The translations under genes were made by a program, and so were the position numbers. Under the pieces are notes generated by a model, which did no database searches, was not told the origin of the DNA, and saw only the letters and a program-made list of their open reading frames with translations. Source: Siphonodentalium dalli (lineage: Eukaryota > Mollusca > Scaphopoda > Gadilida > Siphonodentaliidae). From it: a stretch of 64,000 nt of DNA. Location: contig CP136067.1 of assembly GCA_032622095.1 (NCBI GenBank), positions 78,456,705-78,520,704 on the forward strand, in the 5' to 3' direction. Shown here in pieces: positions 7,395 through 64,000 of the stretch (its first letter is position 1; the number at the start of each line of letters is the position of its first letter).

Positions 7395-7434
7395 TCTCAT
7401 ATATATTTTGAAGACCTCTGTCTGTATGTTTGTT

Positions 7435-7474
<40 letters not shown>

Positions 7475-7924
7475 ATTAATACAAATCTACGATTCTCGAC
7501 CGATCGGGACGAAACTTGGTACGTGTGTGTAGTTTGACCAGGCGGTGAACGTTGTCGTATTTGCGAGCCCGTGCGGCGCCCGCTTCGCGCATGCGCAGAC
7601 GAGATATCGGAAACGGGTGGAGCTATCGACTTGAAATTTGCTATGTGAATGTATCTTGCCCCGGATACGAATTTTATCGGGTCGCCGAGCCCGTGCGACA
7701 CCAGCTTCGCGCATGCGCAGACGAGATCTCGGAAACGGATGGAGCTATCGACTTGAAATTTGCTATGTGAATGTATCTTGCCCCGGATACGAATTTTATC
7801 GGGTCGCCGAGTCCGTGCGACTCCAGCTTCGCGCATGCGCAGACCAGATCTCGGAAACGGGTAGAGCTATCGACTTGAAATTTTGTTTTTGAATAGCCCG
7901 GACAACGTCGGGCTCATCGGCTAG
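7395..7924 (+). mobile_element. Helitron family 1, element A (array 1)
   Basis: This 530-bp non-autonomous Helitron begins TCTCATATATATTTTG after an A. It then runs through a TGTTTG/TGTCTG microsatellite (about 7428-7476) and ends with the hairpin GCCCGGACAACGTCGGGC, seven bases, and CTAG at 7921-7924. Its body is three tandem units of about 121 bp, each holding CTTCGCGCATGCGCAGAC and GAGCTATCGACTTGAAATTTG. The next element starts immediately at 7925 with no host base between. Frames across the body are repeat translations, not protein. Confidence 0.8.
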
Positions 7925-8878
7925 TCTATTATATATTTGGGAAGATCTGTGTGTGTGTGTGTGTCTGTCTGTGTGTGTGTTCGCGATGGACTCGAAAACG
8001 ACCCACCCGATTTCGATGAAACTTGGTATGTGGGGATATTTTCTGTCGGGAAGTAGCATAGGCCTATTAATTTTCAGATCCGAGGTCAACTTTTCACGTG
8101 CCGAGGTCAAATCTGTTTTTACGCTGTGTTACGGGACTTTCATTTGAGTTCGGTGCTTACAAATCGATTCGAAACAGCGCGAATAATTAAATGCCAGTCA
8201 TAATAATGACACTGTGAGAATCTTTCGTGTTTCCTCTTTCCAACGATATATAATGCGTATGTATCCGTTTTAGTTATCTGCCTCAATTATCAAGAAGAAG
8301 TGGTACTATCTTCCATCAGGATAAAAACAATGCGTAACTTCTATGACGTCGTTAGAGTTCATAACGTTAGATCACGTTAACGCTTAACCGGCCGATGCAT
8401 TTGACTGTTTCAGACGTCTTTGCGATATCTCGGGCACCGATGGTAATTTATCTTTACGTTGAAACTTGATAATTAATGAGCGTGTGTGTATGAGGCGCGT
8501 TTATATACTTGAGTGGAAATCAAATCGGGTTAAAAGGTCAAATCGGGTAAAACCGGATGGATTTCGACGGGTACTTTTGTTCGGGCAGTGTTTTGGACGG
8601 GTCAAATCGTGACCCCACTTGACCTTGGCCTTCAAAATAGACAATTCAAGGTCAAACCCCGGATACTTGAGTGGAAATCAAATCGGGTTAAACTGGCGGA
8701 TTTTTACGGACGAAATTTGATGCATAGGGTATCTCGGTATCCGCTGGGCCGATTTCCCGGTATCCGCTGGGCCGATTTCCACCATTTTTGGGGTGTTGGT
8801 GTTTGACCCCACCTGACATTGACCTTCAAAATGGTCAATTCAAGGTCAAAGCCCGGACGAAGTCGGGTCACCTTCTAG
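7925..8878 (+). mobile_element. Helitron family 1, element B (array 1)
   Basis: At 954 bp this is the longest copy. It starts TCTATTATATATTTGG, has a TG/TCTG microsatellite about 25 bp in, and ends CCCGGACGAAGTCGGG, TCACCTT, CTAG. The centre (8130-8460) is non-repetitive and is shared with minus-strand copies at 17560-17760 and 63780-64000. The last 370 bp repeats GGATACTTGAGTGGAAATC and carries AAGGTCAA motifs. It is joined without a gap to A and C. Confidence 0.85.
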
Positions 8879-9487
8879 TCTATTATATATTTTGAAAGAT
8901 CTGTGTGTGTGTGTGTGTATCTGTCTGTGTGTAATCGATGGACTCGAAAATGGCCCAGCCGATTTCGATGAAACTTGGTATGTGGGGGTATTTTCGGGTC
9001 AGGAGTAACATAGGCCTATTGATTTTCAGATCCGAGGTCAACTTTTCACGTGCCGAGGTCAAATCTGTTTTTACGCCGTTTAGCGCTAATATATTTCAGT
9101 TCGGTGCTCACAAAGTTTCTACCTTAATTATCGGGAAGAACGCAGGACCATGCTTCGCTCATCGAAAATCATTGCGTAAATATATTACGCCATCAACATA
9201 TCGTGACGTGATCGCGTTAACTCTTATCCGGCCGATGTCGCGTTAACTCATCACCGGCCGAGGTATCCGCAAATGACATTGGGCTATATATCTCAGAAAC
9301 GGGTGGAGCTATCGACTTGAAATTTGGTATGTGAATGTATCTTGCCCCGGATACGAATTGTATCGGGTCGCCGAGCCCGTGCGACGCCAGCTTCGCGCAT
9401 GCGCAGACCAGATCTCGGAAACGGGTGGAGCAATCGACTTGAAATTTGTTTTTTGAATAGCCCGGACGAAGTCGGGTCACCTTCTAG
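8879..9487 (+). mobile_element. Helitron family 1, element C (array 1), chimeric
   Basis: This 609-bp copy has a left part (8879-9245) that matches the left part of element B, including TCAGATCCGAGGTCAAC and TTTTCACGTGCCGAGG. Its right part (about 9290-9475) matches the 121-bp repeat of element A, with CTTCGCGCATGCGCAGAC. Ends are canonical (TCTATTATA start; CCCGGACGAAGTCGGG and CTAG end). I infer that template switching or recombination between family members built it. Confidence 0.8.
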
Positions 9488-10092
9488 TCTATTATATATT
9501 TTGGAAGATCTGTCTGTGTGTCTGTCTGTGTGTTCGCGATGAAATCGAAAACGGCCCACCCGATTTCGATGAAACTTGGTATGTGGGGGTATTTTTGGCC
9601 GGGGCGAACATAGGCATATTAATTTGTCCGTGCGACGTGACATTGACCTTGAAATCGGGTCATTTCAAGGTCAAACGCCCGAATATCACGGGATTTCGAT
9701 GAAACTTGGTATGTGGGGGTACTTTCTTATGGCGAGTCTCATAAGCATATTCATTTGCCCGTGCGACGTGACCTTGACCTTTAAATCGGGTAACTTCAAG
9801 GTCAAATCGCCAATTTTGATGGGATTTCGACGAAATTTGATACGTGGGGTTACTTTTGTCCACTAATTGTTTTGGACGGGTCCAATCGTGACCCCGACCA
9901 GACCTTGACCTTCAAAATGATCAATTCAAGGTCAAATCGGGTAAAATCGGATGGATTTCGACGGGCACGTTTGTCGGGTACTTTTGCCCGGGCAGTGTTT
10001 TTGGACTGGTCAAATCGTGACCCCACTTGACCTTGACCTTCAAAATGGCCAATTCAAGGTCAAAGCCCGGACGAAGTCGGGTCACCTTCTAG
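9488..10092 (+). mobile_element. Helitron family 1, element D (array 1 end)
   Basis: This 605-bp copy closes array 1; CTAG at 10089-10092 is followed by T and a short TA run. The body is about four subrepeats of 125-130 bp, each with GATTTCGATGAAACTTGG, a TGACCTTGACCTT motif and TTCAAGGTCAA. It belongs to the same subfamily as 15470-17309. Confidence 0.85.
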
Positions 10093-10179: not shown

Positions 10180-10537
10180 GCCCCTAAACCGACCTCATAT
10201 TGTCTAGTAAGACACGCGTGTATTATCGGCACGCGCTGTGACGTACATGGTGTCGATGTCAATGACGGAACTTTATTATTATGTAAATTATAATATAATT
10301 ATGACATTCGATTAGTGTTGGGTTATTTAGTGTTGACTGTGAGATAAACATGGGTGATGGTGGTTGAACAATGTTGTCAACATGAAAAGACACATTTAAA
10401 ATGGAACTCTATTTTTTTTTCTTGAAGGTGACTTTACTTCCTCTTTGGCAATCCTTGTTAATTTGTTTTAACCCAGCCGTTTTGAGGTCGTTTTATCTTG
10501 CTAAAATGTGATTATGTGATAAAATGGATATCAAAAC
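10180..10537 (+). repeat. dispersed repeat R2, copy 1
   Basis: Strong similarity to 45535-45905, including TATTATCGGCACGCGC, GTTGGGTTATTTAGTG and CATGAAAAGACACATTTAAA with spacing nearly unchanged. No protein-coding frame is conserved between the copies. The right end abuts the palindromic element at 10538. Confidence 0.75.
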
Positions 10538-12060: not shown

Positions 12061-12191
12061 TAAAATCTCATAAAACTCTACTGATATCACTCTTATGACT
12101 GGGAATTATCTCAATTAGTTCAAATAAGAGTTTAACCTGTTTCAGAAGATGTTTTAATTGAAACAAAAAGTTTTATAAATTGCTGATCATC

Positions 12192-12940
12192 TGTAAACCT
12201 AGGTCATTGTGCAGAATACACAAAATTTCACAATTTCTAACTCTTTCCTGATTAGTCTGTCAACCAGCCCATTATCTAACATATTCCATACAACTTATGT
12301 TAGTCTACTGGAGCAACTTAGTTATATTATACTAAACTAGCTGAAACAGGCTCCCTTTGGGAGCCTATATAGTCAGCATCGGAGATACCTGTGGCCCCCT
12401 TTGTTGGACTTCGCACACATTTTGATCTTAGACAGACCCTTCACTTACTACCAGCGGCCCCTTTGTGCACTTCAAGCACATTTGGTCATTGAAACATTTT
12501 TAGTTATATATATTGTTTTAATATACTTTTAAAGATTGAATTCCTTGCTTAATTTAACAAAACCAATTTTATTTTATTTCTTTAAATTAAATTTTTGGAA
12601 AAACTAATACCATTATAACATCCGCCATGGTACCCCGAGTCACCACACCAAATTCGGTTGAACTCGGTCCAGGGGTCTGAGAGAAAACTCCGGACAGATC
12701 CTACTCGTTTATATAAATAGATGACAAGCAGTCACAGCACTACACCAGACTTGGATACTTTCGGTCTTGTGAGAGATCATCTGAGTTGAAAGACATGCAA
12801 ATAATTCTCTGATTGGATTGATGCACTGATGACAGATATGTTCTACCCATTTATAGTCACATTAATGTTTGAGACAGTTGCTCGCTCTTTTTCCATGCAC
12901 ACAATGATCTAGGCATTAGTTGCATCAGTACAAGTTTACT
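12192..12940 (+). repeat. local tandem duplication, copy 1 (interrupted)
   Basis: 12192-12336 plus 12722-12938 (about 362 bp together) match 12947-13313 at roughly 80-85% by eye. Shared phrases are GATTAGTCTGTCAACCAGCC and TAGTCACATTAATGTTTGAG. A 385-bp Helitron splits this copy at 12337-12721. Confidence 0.85.
12337..12721 (-). mobile_element. Helitron family 2, complete, with known empty site
   Basis: On the minus strand the element starts TCTATTTATATAAACG at 12721 and ends with the perfect hairpin AGGCTCCCAAAGGGAGCCT, spacer GTTTCAG, and CTAG at 12340-12337. It lies exactly between A12336 and T12722. The second copy of the surrounding duplication reads AATAAATGACAAACAG at 13083-13098, with A13088 and T13089 joined, so the ends are verified without a database. 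At 385 bp with no frame of note it is non-autonomous. The 5' part carries CCAAATTCGGTTGAACTC and a GGTCTGAGAGAA phrase shared with 32740-32800. Confidence 0.9.
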
Positions 12941-12946
12941 TATATA

Positions 12947-13313
12947 TGTAAACTTAGGTCATTGTACAGGATACACACAATTCCATAATTTCTAACCATT
13001 TCCCGATTAGTCTGTCAACCAGCCCATTATCTAGCATTATGCCGTAACACTTTTGTTAGACTACTGGAGCAACCTCTGTTATAATAAATGACAAACAGTC
13101 ACTATGCCATACTTGGATATTTTAGGTGTTGTGAGAGTAACAGATCATATGAGTTGATAGACATGCAAATATTTCACTGATTGGCTTGATGCACTGATGA
13201 ACAGTGTGATGACAGTTATATTCTAGCCATTGATAGTCACATTAATGTTTGAGGCAGTTGCTCTTTTTCCAGGCACACAATGATCTTGGCTTTAGTTACA
13301 TCAAGACAAGTTT
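12947..13313 (+). repeat. local tandem duplication, copy 2 (empty site)
   Basis: This is the uninterrupted partner of 12192-12938. It retains the pre-insertion A|T at 13088/13089. Divergence from copy 1 shows that the duplication is old. No coding frame spans either copy. Confidence 0.85.
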
Positions 13314-13318
13314 ATATA

Positions 13319-13774
13319 TTTCAGTTTTACATTTATCGAAGCTTCTTTCCGAAGGGTGTCGGGAGGAGGTTTTTCACCCCACCGCCCCATATGCAACATG
13401 CCATATAGCTTAATGTCATATCTCATAAGGCCCATATGAGGTCCCAGTAACATAAATATGGTGTTTTTGCAGTTATAAATTCTTATAATATGTTTTAAAC
13501 TGTTACAAATGCCATATAAGGGCACAAAAGGTCTTTCGTAAAAAAATTGCTACATTACTATTTTATTCCACTTGTATGCATTATATATTCGTTTATACCA
13601 TCCGAAATGCTAAAGTAGATGTGACCCAATTTCGAGGCGAGAGTTTTTGTTGATACGTCGCTAAGGCAGCAACGTCGTGAGGTGAATGGTCACGTTGCCC
13701 ATAGTCCTTTATTGGAGTATAATACACATATGTAAGATTGCTAAAATTTAATACACAGTATAACATCAAACCGG
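13319..13774. other. no gene seen
   Basis: Mixed AT-rich DNA. A 74-codon minus frame at 13301-13525 has no motif. CGAGAGTTTTTGTTGATACG near 13640 is unassigned. Confidence 0.4.
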
Positions 13775-15469: not shown

Positions 15470-16083
15470 TCTATTATATATTTTGAAAGATCTGTGTGTG
15501 TATCTGTCTGTGTGTGTGTGTGTAATCGATGGACTCGAAAATGGCCCAGCCGATTTCGATGAAACTTGGTATGTGCGGGTATTTTCGGCCGGGGACGAAC
15601 ATAGGCATATTAATTTGTCCGTGCGACGTGACATTGACCTTGAATTCGGGTCATTTCAAGGTCAAACGCCCGAATATCACGGGATTTCGACGAAACTTGG
15701 TATGTGGGGGTACTTTCTTATGGCGAGTCTCATAAGCATATTCATTTGCCCGTGCGACGTGACCTTGACCTTGAAATCGGGTAACTTCAAGGTCAAATCG
15801 CCAATTTTGATGGGATTTCGACGAAATTTGATACGTGGGGTTACTTTTGTCCACTGATTGTTTTGGACGGGTACAATCGTGACCCCGACCAGACCTTGAC
15901 CTTCAAAATTATCAATTCAAGGTCAAATCGGGTAAAACCGGATGGATTTCGACGGGCACGTTTGTCGGGTACTTTTGTCCGGGCAGTGTTTTTGGACTGG
16001 TCAAATCGTGACCCCACTTGACCTTGACCTTCAAAATGGCCAATTCAAGGTCAAAGCCCGGACGAAGTCGGGTCACCTTCTAG
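15470..16083 (+). mobile_element. Helitron family 1, element E (array 2)
   Basis: 614 bp, inserted in a TA microsatellite (15433-15469) so that A precedes TCTATTATA. The microsatellite TGTGTGTATCTGTCTG follows, then four subrepeats with TGACCTTGACCTTGA and TTCAAGGTCAAA. It ends CCCGGACGAAGTCGGG, TCACCTT, CTAG at 16080-16083. It joins element F directly. Confidence 0.9.
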
Positions 16084-16691
16084 TCTATTATATATTTTGG
16101 AAGATCTGTGTGTGTGTGTGTGTCTGTGTGTTCGCGATGAACTCGAAAACGGCCGACCCGATTTCGATGAAACTTGGTATGTGGGGGTATTTTCGGCCGG
16201 GGACGAACATAGGCATATTAATTTGTCCGTGCGACGTCACCTTGACCTTGAAATCGGGTCATTTCAAGGTCAAACGCCCGAATATCACGGGATTTCGATG
16301 AAACTTGGTATGTGGGGGTACTTTCTTATGGCGAGTCTCATAAGCATATTCATTTGCCCGTGCGACGTGACCTTGACCTTGAAATCGGGTAACATCAAGG
16401 TCAAATCGCCAATTTTGATGGGATTTCGACGAAATTTGATACGTGGGGTTACTTTTGTCCACTGATTGTTTTGGACGGGTACAATCGTGACCCCGACCAG
16501 ACCTTGACCTTCAAAATGATCAATTCAAGGTCAAATCGGGTAAAACCGGATGGATTTCGACGGGCACGTTTGTCGGGTACTTTTGTCCGGGCAGTGTTTT
16601 TGGACTGGTCAAATCGTGACCCCACTTGACCTTGACCTTCAAAATGGCCAATTCAAGGTCAAAGCCCGGACGAAGTCGGGTCACCTTCTAG
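16084..16691 (+). mobile_element. Helitron family 1, element F (array 2)
   Basis: 608 bp, almost identical to element G, differing mainly in the TG/TCTG tract near the 5' end. Subrepeats start near 16157, 16289, 16423 and 16550. A long frame (16097-16465) runs through repeats and recurs in G because the DNA is duplicated; it is not evidence of protein. Confidence 0.9.
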
Positions 16692-17309
16692 TCTATTATA
16701 TATTTTGGAAGATCTGTGTGTCTGTGTGTGTGTGTGTGTGTCTGTGTGTTCGCGATGAACTCGAAAACGGCCGACCCGATTTCGATGAAACTTGGTATGT
16801 GGGGGTATTTTCGGCCGGGGACGAACATAGGCATATTAATTTGTCCGTGCGACGTCACCTTGACCTTGAAATCGGGTCATTTCAAGGTCAAACGCCCGAA
16901 TATCACGGGATTTCGATGAAACTTGGTATGTGGGGGTACTTTCTTATGGCGAGTCTCATAAGCATATTCATTTGCCCGTGCGACGTGACCTTGACCTTGA
17001 AATCGGGTAACATCAAGGTCAAATCGCCAATTTTGATGGGATTTCGACGAAATTTGATACGTGGGGTTACTTTTGTCCACCGATTGTTTTGGACGGGTCA
17101 AATCGTGACCCCGACCAGACCTTGACCTTCAAAATGATCAATTCAAGGTCAAATCGGGTAAAACCGGATGGATTTCGACGGGCACGTTTGTCGGGTACTT
17201 TTGTCCGGGCAGTGTTTTTGGACTGGTCAAATCGTGACCCCACTTGACATTGACCTTCAAAATGGACAATTCAAGGTCAAAGCCCGGACGAAGTCGGGTC
17301 ACCTTCTAG
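16692..17309 (+). mobile_element. Helitron family 1, element G (array 2 end)
   Basis: 618 bp. It ends CTAG at 17306-17309, followed by T and an 18-bp TA run, across which the minus-strand element H begins. Near-identity with F indicates recent formation or homogenisation. The 191-codon frame starting at 16550 crosses the F/G junction and is an artefact of the repeat. Confidence 0.9.
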
Positions 17310-17327
17310 TATATATATATATATATA

Positions 17328-17972
17328 CTAGAAGGTGACCCGACTTCGTCCGGGCTTTGACCTTGAATTGACCATTTTGAAGGTCAAGGTCAGGTGGGGT
17401 CAAACACCAAAACCCCATAAATGGTGGAAATCGGCCCAGCGGATACCGGGAAATCGGCCCAGCGGATACCGAGATACCATATGCATCAAATTTCGTCCGT
17501 AAAAATCCGCCAGTTTAACCCGATTTGATTTCCACTCAAGTATATAAACGCGCCTCATATACACACGCTCATTAATTATCAAGTTTCAACGTAAAGATAA
17601 ATTACCAGATAACTAAAACGGATACATACGCATTATATATCGTTGGAAAGAGGAAACACGAAAGATTCTCACAGTGTCATTATTATGACTGGCATTTTAT
17701 CATTCGCGCTGTTTCGAATCGATTTGTAAGCACCGAACTCAAATGAAAGTCCCGTAACACAGCGTAAAAACAGATTTGACATCGGATCTGAAAATTAATA
17801 TGCCTATGCCACTTCCCGACCGATAGTACCCTCACATACGAAGTTTCATCGAAATCGGGTCGGTCGTTTTCGAGTTCATCGCTCACACACACACATACAG
17901 ACACCACACACACACACACACCCTCACACACACACACACACCCTCACACACACACAGAAAGATCTTCCAAAA

Positions 17973-17984
<12 letters not shown>
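17328..17984 (-). mobile_element. Helitron family 1, element H, inverted
   Basis: About 657 bp on the minus strand. The 3' CTAG lies at 17331-17328 and the hairpin CCCGGACGAAGTCGGG just inside it. The body matches element B (GGCCGATTTCC, GGATACTTGAGTGG counterpart, then the 8150-8300 unique block in reverse). The 5' end has merged into a TA run near 17984, so the initial TC is not preserved. Confidence 0.8.
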
Positions 17985-18007
<23 letters not shown>

Positions 18008-18008
18008 A

Positions 18009-18668
18009 CTAGCAGGTGGACCCGACTTCGTCGGGCTGTTTCCCCTCTGCTTTTCGGCGAATTGCGCGATTTTTCCTTGAATTGTCCATTTGAATGTCCA
18101 TTTTGAAGGTCAAGGTCAGGTGGGGTCACGATTTGACCCGCCCAAAACACTGCCCGGACAAAGGTACCCGACAAAAGTACCCGTCGAAATCCATCCGGTT
18201 TTACCCGATTTGACCTCGAATTGATCATTTTGAAGGTCAAGGTCAGGTCGGGGTCACGACTCGACCCGTCCAAAACACTCGGTGGACAAAAGTAACCATA
18301 CGTATCAAAGTTCGTAGAAATCCCATCAAAATTCGCGATTTGACCTTGAATTGACCCGATTTCAAGGTCAAGGTCACGTCGGACGGGCAAACGAATAGGC
18401 TTACGACACCCCCCATACGAAAGTATCCCTAGACACTAATTTTCATCGAAATCCCGCGATACTCGGGCGTTCGACCTTGAAATGACCCGATGTCAAGGTC
18501 AAGGTCACGTCACACGGGCAAATTAATAGGCCACTCCCCGGCCGAAAGTACCCCCACATACCAAGTTTCATCGAAATCGGCTCATCCGTTTTCGAGTCCA
18601 TCGCGAACACACAGACAGACACACACACACACACACACACACACAGATTTCCCAAAATATATAATAGA
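18009..18668 (-). mobile_element. Helitron family 1, element I, inverted
   Basis: 660 bp on the minus strand. It starts TCTATTATATATTTTG at 18668 (A before it) and ends with the bulge-free hairpin CCCGACGAAGTCGGG, spacer and CTAG at 18012-18009. It is separated from H by a TA run. The body is a diverged version of the D-G subrepeats with many AAGGTCAAGGTCA motifs. Confidence 0.85.
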
Positions 18669-30535: not shown

Positions 30536-32345
30536 TTACCTACAATCACTGCTGTTTTTGGTTCTTTGGAATTGATAAACAAGAGGAACGTCTGGAGAAC
30601 GAAAATTGGAAAAACGGAATTTTTACAACTAAACTTCAATCACCATCGTCGTCTTAGACATCATCGTCGTCATAGTCATCATCATTATCATCATTCATCG
30701 CTGTCTGCATCGTAGTCATCAACATTGTCATCATATCATCATCATCGCTGCCGTCGTTGTCATAATCATCACTGTCGTCACGGTTGTCATCACCATCGCT
30801 TTCGTCGTAGTCATCATCATCGATGTCCACGTAGTCATCATCGTCGCGTCGTAGTCACCTTCATCTATACCGTCGTCGTAGTCATCATCATCTTTATCGT
30901 CGTCGTCATCATCATCATCATCGCTGTCGTCATCATTGTAATCACCATCGTCGCAGTCGTCTTGTCACCATCAAAGCTGCTGTTGTCGTAATCATCATCA
31001 TTATCATCGTCGATATCGTCGTCGTGGTCATGATTATCATCGCTGTCGTCGTAGTCATCATCATGATCGCAGTCGTCGTGGTAATCACCATCATCCCTGT
31101 CGCTGTCGTAGTCATCATCATCTCTGCCGTTGTCGTAGTCATCATCATCGTTGTCGTCGTCGTGGTTATCATTATCATCGCTGTCGTCGTGGTCATCATC
31201 ATCATCATTACTGTCGTCGTCGTCATCATCATTGCTGTCGTCGTCGTCATCATCATTACTGTCGTCGTCGTCGTCATCATCATTGCTGTCGTGGTCAAAG
31301 TAATACATAGATGACATTGTTGACGATAACGACGAAAACGAGGACGGCTTATATGCGTGCGGATGGTGAAGATGATAGCGATGATGGTGACGACGACAAC
31401 AACTATATATACGACAACTTCGACGGTGATCGTAATTTACACAGATGGCGTCGATGAAGTCGACGACGACGATAATGATGATGATAATGATGACGATGTC
31501 GACATCGATGTCTATTATAATGATGTTGACCATGTTGCTACACGACGACGCGGATGATGGTAATAATTAGGATGATGCTGGCATGCTGCCAATAGCGGAG
31601 ATGATGACGACGACGGTGATAATGGTAATACTTAGGATGATGCTGGCATGCTGCCAATAGCGGAGATGATTATGATTACAACGACGACGATGATTATGAT
31701 GACGACGATGATCATGACGACAACGACGACAGCGGTAATTATGATAACGAACAGCGAGTATGATGACTACGATGACAACATCGATGATGAGATGATGATG
31801 GTGACTACAACGACAACCTCGATGATTATGATGATGACTACCACGACAACGATGATAATGATGATGACTTAGACGACGACGGCGATGATGATGGTTACTT
31901 CGACGATGACAGCAATGATGATGATGACTACGACCGTACGACGACGTCAGCGATGACGATGACTTCGACGACAGCGATGATGTTGATGACTACAACGACA
32001 GCGATTATGACAACGGCTATTATGATAAGTACGACGACAGCGATGATCATGATGATGATGACGACGAAGACGACAGCGATGATAATGACTACGACGACGA
32101 TGATGACGGTGACTACGACGAAGATAGAGATGTGATGGTGATGATGATAATGGTGATGACTACGATGACGACAGCGATGATGATGACGACGGCGTTGACG
32201 ATGACGATTGCGATGGCAATGAAGATGCTTACGGTGATTACGTTTACATGACAATGACGACGAAAACGACGACGATGATTGACGTTTAGTTGCAAATAAT
32301 AATTCTTCAATTCTCAAGAAACAAAACAGCAGTAACTGTAGGTAA
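30536..32345. mobile_element. 1.8-kb foldback element with trinucleotide arms
   Basis: The outer ends are inverted repeats of about 40 bp: TTACCTACAATCACTGCTGT (30536) pairs with ACAGCAGTAACTGTAGGTAA (ending 32345), and a matching GGAATTGA/TCAATTC closes the block. A second inverted pair lies inside: ACAACTAAACTTCAATCACC at 30625 and its counterpart ending GTTTAGTTGC at 32294. Between them the left arm (30640-31300) is TCATCATCGTCGTCGTAGTC-like and the right arm (31360-32270) is the complement, GACTACGACGACGATGATGA-like, so the element can fold on itself. The layout recalls foldback (FB-type) transposons, whose long inverted repeats are made of tandem units. The Asp-, Thr-, Val- and His-rich frames (up to 222 codons) are translations of the repeat. 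Confidence 0.75.
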
Positions 32346-32831: not shown

Positions 32832-33305
32832 TCTATTATATATTTTGGAACTTCTGTCTGTCTGTGTGTCTTATAAACTCGAAAACTGCTCGACCGATCC
32901 GACGAATTTTGTATGTAGGCCGACTTTGATCCCGGGAACTATATGGGCGGGTCCAATTTCACGCGCGACCGTGTCCTTGACCATGACCTCGCCCATATAC
33001 GCTCATATATATAGGCATCTGTCTGGACCTCGACCGATCCGACTCGAGTTTGGTACGTATACGGGCCTACTTTAATCCCGGGAACAATATGGGCGGGTCC
33101 AATTTCACGTACGGTCGTGTCCTTGACCTTGACCTCGCTCATATAGGCATGTTTCTGGACCGATCGAACATTAGTTATTTTTACTTTTTCCTAATACTTT
33201 TCAACGTTGTTCGCTCAGTATCCCGACGCTGAATATTCTGCCCAGACGGGGGCGATCACAAAGAAATCCATAAATGGCCCGGACGAAGTCGGGCAGATCA
33301 GCTAG
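32832..33305 (+). mobile_element. Helitron family 1, element M, single copy
   Basis: 474 bp, beginning TCTATTATATATTTTGG and TCTGTCTGTCTGTGTG. The body is two subrepeats of about 130 bp (CCCGGGAAC.ATATGGGCGG, AATTTCACG, GTGTCCTTGACC.TGACCTCG). The end is CCCGGACGAAGTCGGG, CAGATCAG, CTAG at 33302-33305, then T. The base before the start is T, not the usual A. The short subrepeats differ from those of elements A-I, so this is another subfamily with the same termini. Confidence 0.8.
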
Positions 33306-41519: not shown

Positions 41520-43060
41520 GCGTGGGCTAGTCTAAAATTCTCGGCAGATTTTGTGAAAATAAATATGAATACACTCAGCTTTTTATGGGAATAAATCAAG
41601 ATTACGATATGTTGTATTTCACCGAAACCCGCATCGATGCAGCATATCCCAGCAGTATTATACAGCTTGGTGGGTTCTCTGATCCTGTGAGATATGACGG
41701 TTCGAGCCATGGAGGAGTAATCGCGGTTTATTGTGATGATCATCTCGTCTTCGAGTGTATACCCTCTCTCGAATTCGATTATTCAACGCTGTGGTTGAAG
41801 ATGAATTCCAGTGCCTCCCGCTATCTATTGTGTTTCTCGTATCGTTCTGATCAATATTATACTGAGAGGTACTGGGAGCTGATTGCCCAGTCCATATCGA
41901 ATGCATTTGACTTTAATATCACTATGATTCTAACTGCATGGCTAGAAACTATCTCGTTTTAAAGTCTGCGAAACGTCATTGAAATCACCAACCAGAGTTA
42001 CCTCGACAACATCGCATTGTGGATGACAATGTTACATGTCAATCCGAAGTGATTGACTTTCGGAGATCCATATTAGATCACCGTGCGGTCATTTCGGTAA
42101 TTAAAATATGACTCCAAAATAATGTCCCCTTCTCTCGGCTTGTCAGGATTTATGACAGAGGCAATTTAGAAGAAGATATAAGCTCATTTAGGACCCAGAG
42201 TGGCTACACCCTATATATCGAAACAGCACCCGACATATAGACCCCGCGACTGATATATTTACCTCCAAATTTATCGAATTTATATGGACCAAACTGTGCC
42301 CCAATCAAAAGTATTGATAAGACATAAAGACAAAAATTGGTTCACTTCAGAAATGAGAACGATAATTCGGAAAAGAGATAGACTGCGATTGATGAGAGAG
42401 GCAATTTAGTATTTGATGACCACACAAAGCGGCCATGCTCAACGGTGCAATTCATCACCAATATTCACCCACAAATGTAGTAACATAACAAACACTGAAA
42501 TCACTATCGATGACATAATTTCTGCTATTGGGACCTTGAAACCTAGTAAGATATCTAGTCACGGTGAATTACAGTTAAAATGATCCAATATATACAAGCC
42601 CAGTCATAGCCACCCCCTTAAAGCGATATTTAAAAAATCGTTCGAGCTTTGTGTATTCCCACCACAGTGGAAGCAGGCACATGCATGTTATCCCTATAAT
42701 TACAAGAACAATGACAAAAAATCCCTTACTCGTATGTACTTGCTTTTTTTAGTGCTAACCATGCATCACTTGATGACTACGCGTAAACTATTTGAAGATC
42801 TGGATAGAGTTTCTTATTGGTCGAAAAAATGGTTGGTTACCCTTTGCGAGTCATAGACTACTTCAGAAATGAGGCCCACTTCAAATCGAGTTTCATTCCA
42901 TCCACGATCGCTGAATGGAATCTATCATGCAAAACCACTACCGACAACAACAAACTTGATGACCCCTCATCAGAACCAACCAACGACGAAATCATAAGTA
43001 ACATCTATAGAACATTATGTAAAAAACCAAAACGTGACCATTGTCTGAAAAATATTTCTT
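41520..43060 (+). pseudogene. decayed CR1/L2-like LINE (EN plus partial RT)
   Basis: This is a non-LTR retrotransposon polyprotein in pieces. 41585-41962 encodes an AP-endonuclease-like N-terminus: YFTETRIDA, then HGGVIAVYCDD and TLWLKMN, then LLCFSYRSDQYY, the expected order for this domain. A frame shift follows the TETRID-bearing segment, and the DH catalytic pair appears in RSILDHRAVISVIK (about 42060-42105). 42499-42705 resembles the start of the reverse transcriptase: ITIDDIISAIGTLKPSKISS, an internal stop, then FKKSFELCVFPPQWKQAHA. The central palm with its YADD-type motif is missing. The thumb follows in DLDRVSYWSKKWLVT (about 42795-42840), then the C-terminal phrase FKSSFIPSTIAEWN (about 42880-42920). 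It is clearly dead: at least two stops, several frame shifts and a large deletion. Domain calls rest on pattern memory, not alignment. Confidence 0.75.
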
Positions 43061-53824: not shown

Positions 53825-54036
53825 CTAGCAGGTGACCCGACTTCGTCCGGGTTTTGACCTTGAATTGACCATTTTGAATGTCAAGGTCAGGTCGGGGTCA
53901 CGATTTGACCCGTCCAAAACACTCCCCGGAGAAAATTACCCGTAGATATCAAATTTCGTCGAAATCCGTCCAGCAATTTTCCCGGCCATAGCTAACAGAC
54001 AAACAAACAGACAGAAGTCTCAAAATATATATTAGA
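53825..54036 (-). mobile_element. Helitron family 1, element J, 212-bp miniature
   Basis: On the minus strand it starts TCTAATATATATTTTGAG at 54036 after an A. A short TCTGTTTGTTTG microsatellite and a single AAGGTCAAAACCCGG-type subrepeat follow, and it ends CCCGGACGAAGTCGGG, spacer, CTAG at 53828-53825, then T. It is the smallest complete copy here. Confidence 0.85.
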
Positions 54037-54057
54037 TCATTTGTGGGTACCCGTTTC

Positions 54058-54436
54058 AAGGTGAAGGTCACCTCGGGCGGAAAAACAGACCTGATGAAAA
54101 TCACCCCCATTCCTAGGAACCCCTAAGTACGAATCACACAACACGCTCATGTCTGGACACAGACACAACACGCTATTGTCTGGACACATATACGCTCTTT
54201 ATCAACGACACTGCGGATACGAACGCTCTTTAACTATCACGCGATTAACCCATGAATTCCCATTTCTGTGGCGGGGGAATGGAGAAGGAGTTCTCTGACG
54301 TTCTCCAACACGGCGGTAAACACTGCCCGTGATTTTTAACCTTAGATTGGAAGTTTGAACTCAATCGGTCCAGCCGTTTTCCCGGCCATAGCTAACAGAC
54401 AGACAAACAAACAGAAGACCCAAAATATATATTAGA
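54058..54436 (-). mobile_element. Helitron family 1, element K, 3'-truncated
   Basis: The 5' end at 54436 (TCTAATATATATTTTGGG) and the following TTAGCTATGGCCGGGAAAAC match element J. An AAGGTGAAGGTCACCTCGGG phrase occurs near 54060. No hairpin or CTAG end is present, so the 3' boundary is uncertain. Confidence 0.55.
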
Positions 54437-63521: not shown

Positions 63522-63522
<1 letters not shown>

Positions 63523-64000
63523 TAGACGGTGACCCGACTTCGTCTGGGCTTTGACCTTGAATTGACCATTTTGAAGGTCAAGGTCAGGTGGGGTCAAACA
63601 ACAACACCCCAAAAATGGTGGAAATCGGCCCAGCGGATACCGGGAAATCGGCCCAGCGGATACCGAGATACCCTATGCATCAAATTTCGTCCGTAAAAAT
63701 CCGGCAGTTTAACTCGATTTGATTTCCACTCAAGTATATAAACGCGCCTCATATACACACGCTCATTAATAATCAAGTTTCAACGTGCCCGAGATATCGC
63801 CAAGACGTCTGAAACAGTCAAATGCATCGGCCGGTTAAGCGTTAACGTTATCTAACGTTATGACCTCTAACGACGTCATAGAAGTTACGCATTGTTTTTA
63901 TCCTGATGGAAGATAGTACCACTTCTTCTTGATAATTGAGGCAGATAACTAAAACGGATACATACGCATTATATATCGTTGGAAAGAGGAAACACGAAAG
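63522..64000 (-). mobile_element. Helitron family 1, element L (runs off window)
   Basis: On the minus strand the 3' end is a CCCAGACGAAGTCGGG hairpin-like block, TCACCGT, and CTAG at 63525-63522, then T and a TA run. The visible 479 bp match element B (8390-8870) in reverse, including GGATACTTGAGTGGAAATC-type and CAGACGTCTTGGCGATATC-type blocks. The 5' end lies beyond the window. Confidence 0.85.

Follow-up and report, generated by a model that had tools for sequence, protein, structure and literature searches.

Two head-to-tail arrays of exactly joined mosaic Helitrons within a single 64-kb window

Introduction

Helitrons that abut one another have been described in several organisms, and both the form of the joint and the unlikeness of the neighbours reported here are already known; exact joints are a known habit of Helitrons. 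The accounts given below follow excerpts of the cited papers. At the maize r1 locus (AF466202), two unlike Helitrons adjoin such that the CTAG of one is directly followed by the TC of the other, in a G|T joint without a host A (PMC2267711). In the excerpted text, the authors favour independent insertions, leave their order open and propose both end-insertion routes. PCR on maize lines revealed both elements, only the left element, or neither; five lines carried one or both, and the one-element lines had the left element only (PMC2267711). Tandem Helitrons in Myotis lucifugus and Bombyx mori have been attributed to a bypassed termination signal (PMC4067079), and perfect head-to-tail junctions in bat, as well as distantly related Helitrons that directly adjoin in bat and maize, are cited in PMC2267711 and PMC4067079. 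In two fungal cases of the Helitron2 type, both in PMC5148889, FoHeli composites of Fusarium possess several 5' ends and one 3' end, and a triplet of tandem copies in Metarhizium acridum has been explained either by double insertion into a 5' end or by rolling-circle replication. The excerpt of PMC4683698 contains nothing on joined Helitron copies.

The arrays described here share with the maize r1 pair the unlike bodies and the CTAG|TC joint; however, the maize pair consists of two gene-carrying plant elements, for which no hybrids are described in the excerpt, whereas the present arrays comprise four and three short, non-coding ones. Perfect junctions like those of the bat arrays are found here as well, though in bat and Bombyx the arrays were attributed to a bypassed stop. 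Circles of Helraiser display an exact 3'-to-5' end junction like the joints at this locus, but they are extrachromosomal, derive from one element and were obtained experimentally (PMC5876387). The FoHeli composites find a counterpart in the J-K element of the present window, and the Metarhizium triplet is likewise a tandem arrangement. In the excerpts of open-licence literature, no description was found of longer arrays of mixed membership that include hybrids and have a TA target on one side, which does not imply absence from print. Deciding between end insertion and rolling-circle products as the origin of such arrays is relevant to the way in which Helitrons terminate and integrate; when the members are unlike and some units are hybrids, age order and mosaic breakpoints can separate the two routes. 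Moreover, such arrays illustrate a route by which transposons could give rise to satellite-like arrays and to new non-autonomous types.

Two arrays with exact joints

The window, that is, the whole 64-kb stretch of DNA that was analysed, contains a first head-to-tail array (array 1) of four elements, A-D, whose joints were evaluated by a motif scan and a shuffle test:

7395..7924, plus strand: element A, a non-autonomous Helitron of 530 bp with divergent ends (TCTCATATA... and ...CATCGGCTAG)
7925..8878, plus strand: element B, 954 bp, of a type also seen as H and M
8879..9487, plus strand: element C, 609 bp, with B-like 5' ~240 bp and A-like 3' 187 bp
9488..10092, plus strand: element D, 605 bp, of the same type as E, F and G
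7921..7933, plus strand: exact joint A/B, CTAG followed by TCTATTATA
8875..8887, plus strand: exact joint B/C
9484..9496, plus strand: exact joint C/D

The joint 13-mer CTAGTCTATTATA occurs exactly at 7921, 8875 and 9484 in the motif scan of the window, and A-D therefore adjoin without any host base. The initial annotation had placed the joints at 7924/7925, 8878/8879 and 9487/9488 and had given lengths of 530, 954, 609 and 605 bp for A, B, C and D, respectively; all three joints lie exactly there, and the lengths are correct. Five exact copies of CTAGTCTATTATA are present in the window against 0.01 expected, and none of 100 dinucleotide shuffles reached five. When up to two mismatches are allowed, the number rises to 8 against 2.06 expected, and the extra matches, at 12328, 33302 and 40363, are taken as unrelated to the exact joints. 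The sequence TCTATTATA also occurs exactly at 31511 and 47282; as both positions are absent from the 5'-motif matches, neither was counted as an element end. At its borders, array 1 is flanked by a single host A on the left (GACA/TCTC) and a single host T on the right (CTAG/TATATA), as if the array as a whole occupied one A|T site.

The remaining two exact copies, at 16080 and 16688, are the joints of a second head-to-tail array, E-F-G (array 2, 15470-17309), which is absent from this finding in the initial annotation and is likewise flanked by a host A on the left and a host T on the right, as if filling one A|T site. Further members of the family lie next to this array and elsewhere in the window:

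15470..16083, plus strand: element E, 614 bp, unit 1 of array 2, ~110 bp of C-type at its start and the remainder D-type
16084..16691, plus strand: element F, 608 bp, middle unit of array 2, 5' part the same as G outside the GT tract and 3' part E-like
16692..17309, plus strand: element G, 618 bp, final unit of array 2, D-type
16080..16092, plus strand: exact joint E/F (motif scan and shuffle test)
16688..16700, plus strand: exact joint F/G (motif scan and shuffle test)
17310..17327, no strand: TA spacer of 18 nt between G and H, which lie tail to tail (flank inspection)
17328..17985, minus strand: element H, B-type, 5' border uncertain
18009..18668, minus strand: element I, 660 bp, a diverged D-type flanked by A and T
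32832..33305, plus strand: element L, 474 bp, a solo relative with similar ends and a 5' flank of T instead of A
53825..54436, minus strand: J-K, with two 5' ends (54436 and 54036) and one 3' end (53825)
63522..64000, minus strand: element M, B-type, truncated by the end of the window, with (TA)n at its 3' flank

The 5' ends were located by a motif scan allowing up to nine mismatches, from which 11 of 31 matches were kept, and the 5' end of A was added by eye. For the 3' ends, nine of ten matches to a CTAG-ending motif were kept (the one at 10421, with nine mismatches, was dropped), and those of A, I and L were again added by eye. The 5' border of H is uncertain because the TC expected there has been lost within a TA tract.

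Some neighbouring pairs lack an exact joint. On the minus strand, I and H are arranged head to tail with ~23 nt of TA-rich DNA separating them, G and H are likewise not exactly joined, and the second 5' end of J-K is preceded by ATGA and not by CTAG. These exceptions indicate that copies also insert beside one another within a TA tract, the exact joint being one of several results. Joints carrying host DNA elsewhere had been named by the initial annotation as a finding that would refute it, and such a case exists in part in I-H, where a TA tract lies between the members.

The stretch from 15.4 to 18.7 kb as a whole, comprising array 2 and the minus-strand elements H and I across TA tracts, forms a cluster of Helitrons set in TA microsatellite DNA.

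Helitron identity of the elements

A TC 5' end belongs to the canonical definition of Helitrons (PMC12477314, excerpt). It is present at 11 of the 12 listed 5' ends (A-G, I, J, K and L), that of H being the exception, and CTAG, a CTRR-type end, closes all 12 listed 3' ends (A-I, K, L and M); both counts are partly circular, since the ends were located with motifs that contain TC and CTAG. A 3' hairpin, CCCG...CGGG with a bulge, is situated 7 nt before CTAG in the main type. As a DNA fold it is weak (-3.3 kcal/mol, z about -0.3, for the seven main-type ends folded); A (-6.4 kcal/mol, z -2.0) and I (-6.1 kcal/mol, z -1.2) possess better-folding hairpins, and the folding covered 9 of the 12 3' ends. 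At the free ends, the host base is T after 7 of 7 3' ends and A before five of six readable 5' ends (A, E, I, J and K, but not L). The Helitron identity proposed initially is supported by the TC 5' end, the 3' hairpin, CTAG, and the host A on the left and host T on the right of each array, and the evidence supports the view that the array members are non-autonomous canonical Helitrons (TC...hairpin...CTAG) of one family. Close to their 5' ends the elements carry a GT or TCTG microsatellite, and several contain internal direct repeats, one of 122 bp in A (~2.6 copies) and one of 131 bp in D, E, F, G and I.

An autonomous Helitron1 is marked by a RepHel protein; the longest closed open frame of the window encodes 233 aa, and the elements are therefore regarded as non-autonomous. 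A Pfam scan of 3 of the 52 open frames of the window returned one sub-threshold match, to TMEM219 (E 0.0039; 17.2 bits, cut-off 27). Pattern scans of viral contigs yielded 0 copies, as did that of bacterial and archaeal contigs, where little would be expected for an apparently eukaryotic window.

Assignment to Helentron/HINE (Helitron2) elements was also considered. According to the excerpt of PMC4067079, these prefer TT or T-rich insertion sites and have been described as having subterminal inverted repeats. Such an insertion preference is not seen here: the free ends are flanked by A at the 5' side and T at the 3' side in the proportions given above, and the termini are of the TC...CTAG form.

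Mosaic bodies and signs of exchange

The bodies of array 1 were initially described as four unlike ones. This is overstated, as A-D share segments in a mosaic fashion, although array 1 is still not one element duplicated. In particular, C has its first ~240 bp in common with B (87% identity) and its 3' 187 bp in common with A (93.6% identity), and pieces of C cover 513 of the 530 bp of A, some of them only ~70% alike or consisting of microsatellite. B and D have 149 bp in common at the 5' end (83%) and are 96% identical over the last 75 bp, and the last 29 bp are identical in B, C and D. Element D is 95.3-97.4% identical to E, F and G. On these alignments the family is best described as a set of modules, the members of array 1 appearing as mosaics of one family.

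Pure duplication of a single element was rejected for array 1, since A and B have just 74 of 530 bp in common in BLAST, mostly microsatellite.

Exchange between members is suggested by an alignment of the five D-type copies (D, E, F, G and I) from which the GT tract was excluded and in which the boundaries, at columns 117 and 392, were set after the sites had been seen. F does not differ from G at any of 330 positions in columns 63-392 and then differs at 5 of 230, whereas against E it shows 13 differences in the same 330 positions and then 1 in 230. Nine sites have each of their two states represented in two or more of the five copies; along these, F matches G at the first six and E at the last three, which corresponds to one switch (exact p = 2/84). 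When all 20 E/G sites are taken, three switches are counted in F (permutation p = 0.009), two of which stem from one change private to E that breaks the run. Element E, in turn, matches C throughout the initial ~110 columns when the GT tract is set aside and is D-like thereafter, as read from the alignment by eye, and the switch falls inside a block common to both types. Judged from these patterns, F looks like a G/E hybrid and E looks like a C/D-type hybrid. Unequal exchange in an E-G pair would be expected to produce a middle unit with a G-like 5' part and an E-like 3' part; the pattern would look no different after gene conversion. The statement that simple duplication cannot explain the array needs to be divided: it holds for the making of the joints, but it misses exchange among members, to which the hybrid-like F and E point.

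In columns 118-622, which exclude the C-like 5' end of E, E differs from G at 11 of 505 positions and D from G at 12 of 504, so that G is about as distant from E, within its own array, as from D of array 1. A recent amplification of array 2 from one copy is unsupported, as E and G are as different as D and G. Over their whole length, F and G show 5 differences in 579, E and F 12 in 579, and D and F 11 in 576, counts that vary with the mask of the GT tract (three further E-F differences beside the tract appear under a different mask). When the C-like 5' end of E is left aside, the numbers are 6 of 505 for E-F and 9 of 504 for D-F; that E is nearer than D to F is put down to the E-like 3' part of F.

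Flanks and target preference

All seven free 3' ends (D, G, H, I, K, L and M) run into TAT, with at least seven of eight bases A/T. Among A|T sites on both strands outside the elements, 835 of 12260 (6.8%) show the same TAT/A+T-rich pattern, and the binomial probability of seven TAT-rich 3' flanks out of seven is 7e-9, for a pattern picked after looking and for at most six independent flanks, since the ends of G and H border the same TA tract. No such uniformity is seen in the 5' flanks: their last eight bases contain 3 (A), 4 (I), 6 (L, K and J) or 8 (E and H) A/T bases. The target preference hence seems to lie on the 3' side.

The 5' end of the elements themselves, TCTATTATATA, resembles a TAT-rich tract except at the second base. 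The likeness to the preferred tract is loose, because the flank at the joint reads TCTAT and not TATAT; nevertheless, this end may act as a target.

Origin of the arrays

Three origins had been proposed initially: rolling-circle read-through, joining of circles with perfectly abutted ends, and repeated insertion at element ends. The last fits best for unlike members, and pure read-through of one element is insufficient for array 1. On balance, we think it probable that the joints arose by consecutive insertion at element ends and that the arrays were then reshaped by exchange between neighbours. A new copy inserting exactly at the end of a resident copy would create an exact joint of unlike members. 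The simplest target would be the A|T at which the host A meets the first T of the resident, as insertion at this canonical site would give CTAG|TC without a host base; insertion at the 3' end of the resident would instead need G|T. Both routes were put forward for the maize pair (PMC2267711). Array 1 would not have been made by duplicating one element, given how little A and B share. The B- and D-types are also represented away from array 1, in different surroundings (H, M, I and E-G), which is consistent with independent movement, and RepHel would have been supplied from elsewhere. The solo element L, with T at its 5' flank, stands against this reading, as do the three neighbouring pairs that lack an exact joint (I-H, G-H and J-K).

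The direction of growth can be addressed more tentatively. Since the sites favoured by the family consist of A|T with a TAT-rich tract after it, and TCTATTATATA resembles such a tract, a resident copy may offer a suitable target at its 5' end, and repeated use of this end would let arrays grow leftwards, the newest unit being placed at the left. Homologous exchange between joined neighbours would then generate hybrids and could have enlarged array 2 from two units to three. The full conjecture, that the 5' end mimics the family's own preferred target, that copies thereby become landing pads from which arrays extend to the left, and that joined copies exchange into chimeric Helitrons with working ends, is one we regard as rather unlikely in its entirety. 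The maize precedent, as far as the excerpt goes, does not favour the leftward A|T direction, because lines with the left element only would fit the G|T route directly, whereas the A|T route would need clean excision.

A possible but doubtful alternative is that the arrays are rolling-circle concatemers, formed from circles with exactly joined ends or after a missed 3' stop and integrated once at a single A|T site; differing bodies would then reflect template switching or the formation of circles from elements that were joined beforehand. Helraiser circles with their precise junctions are able to serve as donors, rolling-circle arrays of truncated Helitrons are described second-hand in the excerpt of PMC8268682, each array lies within one A|T site, and F and G are nearly identical, all of which agrees with such an origin. 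However, a single circle yields like units and those of array 1 are unlike, E and G are no closer than copies from different arrays, and bypass from a solo copy would be expected to carry host DNA.

We consider it still more unlikely that recombination was the main process, with one old joint spread and shuffled between arrays by unequal exchange or gene conversion and only few joint-forming events. The hybrid-like F and E, the presence in C of parts of B and A, and the identical 3' termini of B, C and D would be accounted for; but the A/B joint seems to need its own joining event, as the two bodies have so little in common beyond microsatellite, and B- and D-types are found outside array 1.

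That repeats were collapsed or wrongly joined in assembly is highly improbable: such repeats are hard to assemble, but neighbours differ in body and in GT-tract length, the same joint is found in two separate arrays, and joints of this form have been reported in maize lines examined by PCR (PMC2267711, excerpt).

Other features of the window

An open frame at 41531-41962, which by eye looks like part of a LINE endonuclease, had no Pfam match at E 0.01. Between the two arrays, at 12189-13319, lie diverged local duplications comprising five repeat pairs of 36-94 nt that are 83-91% alike.
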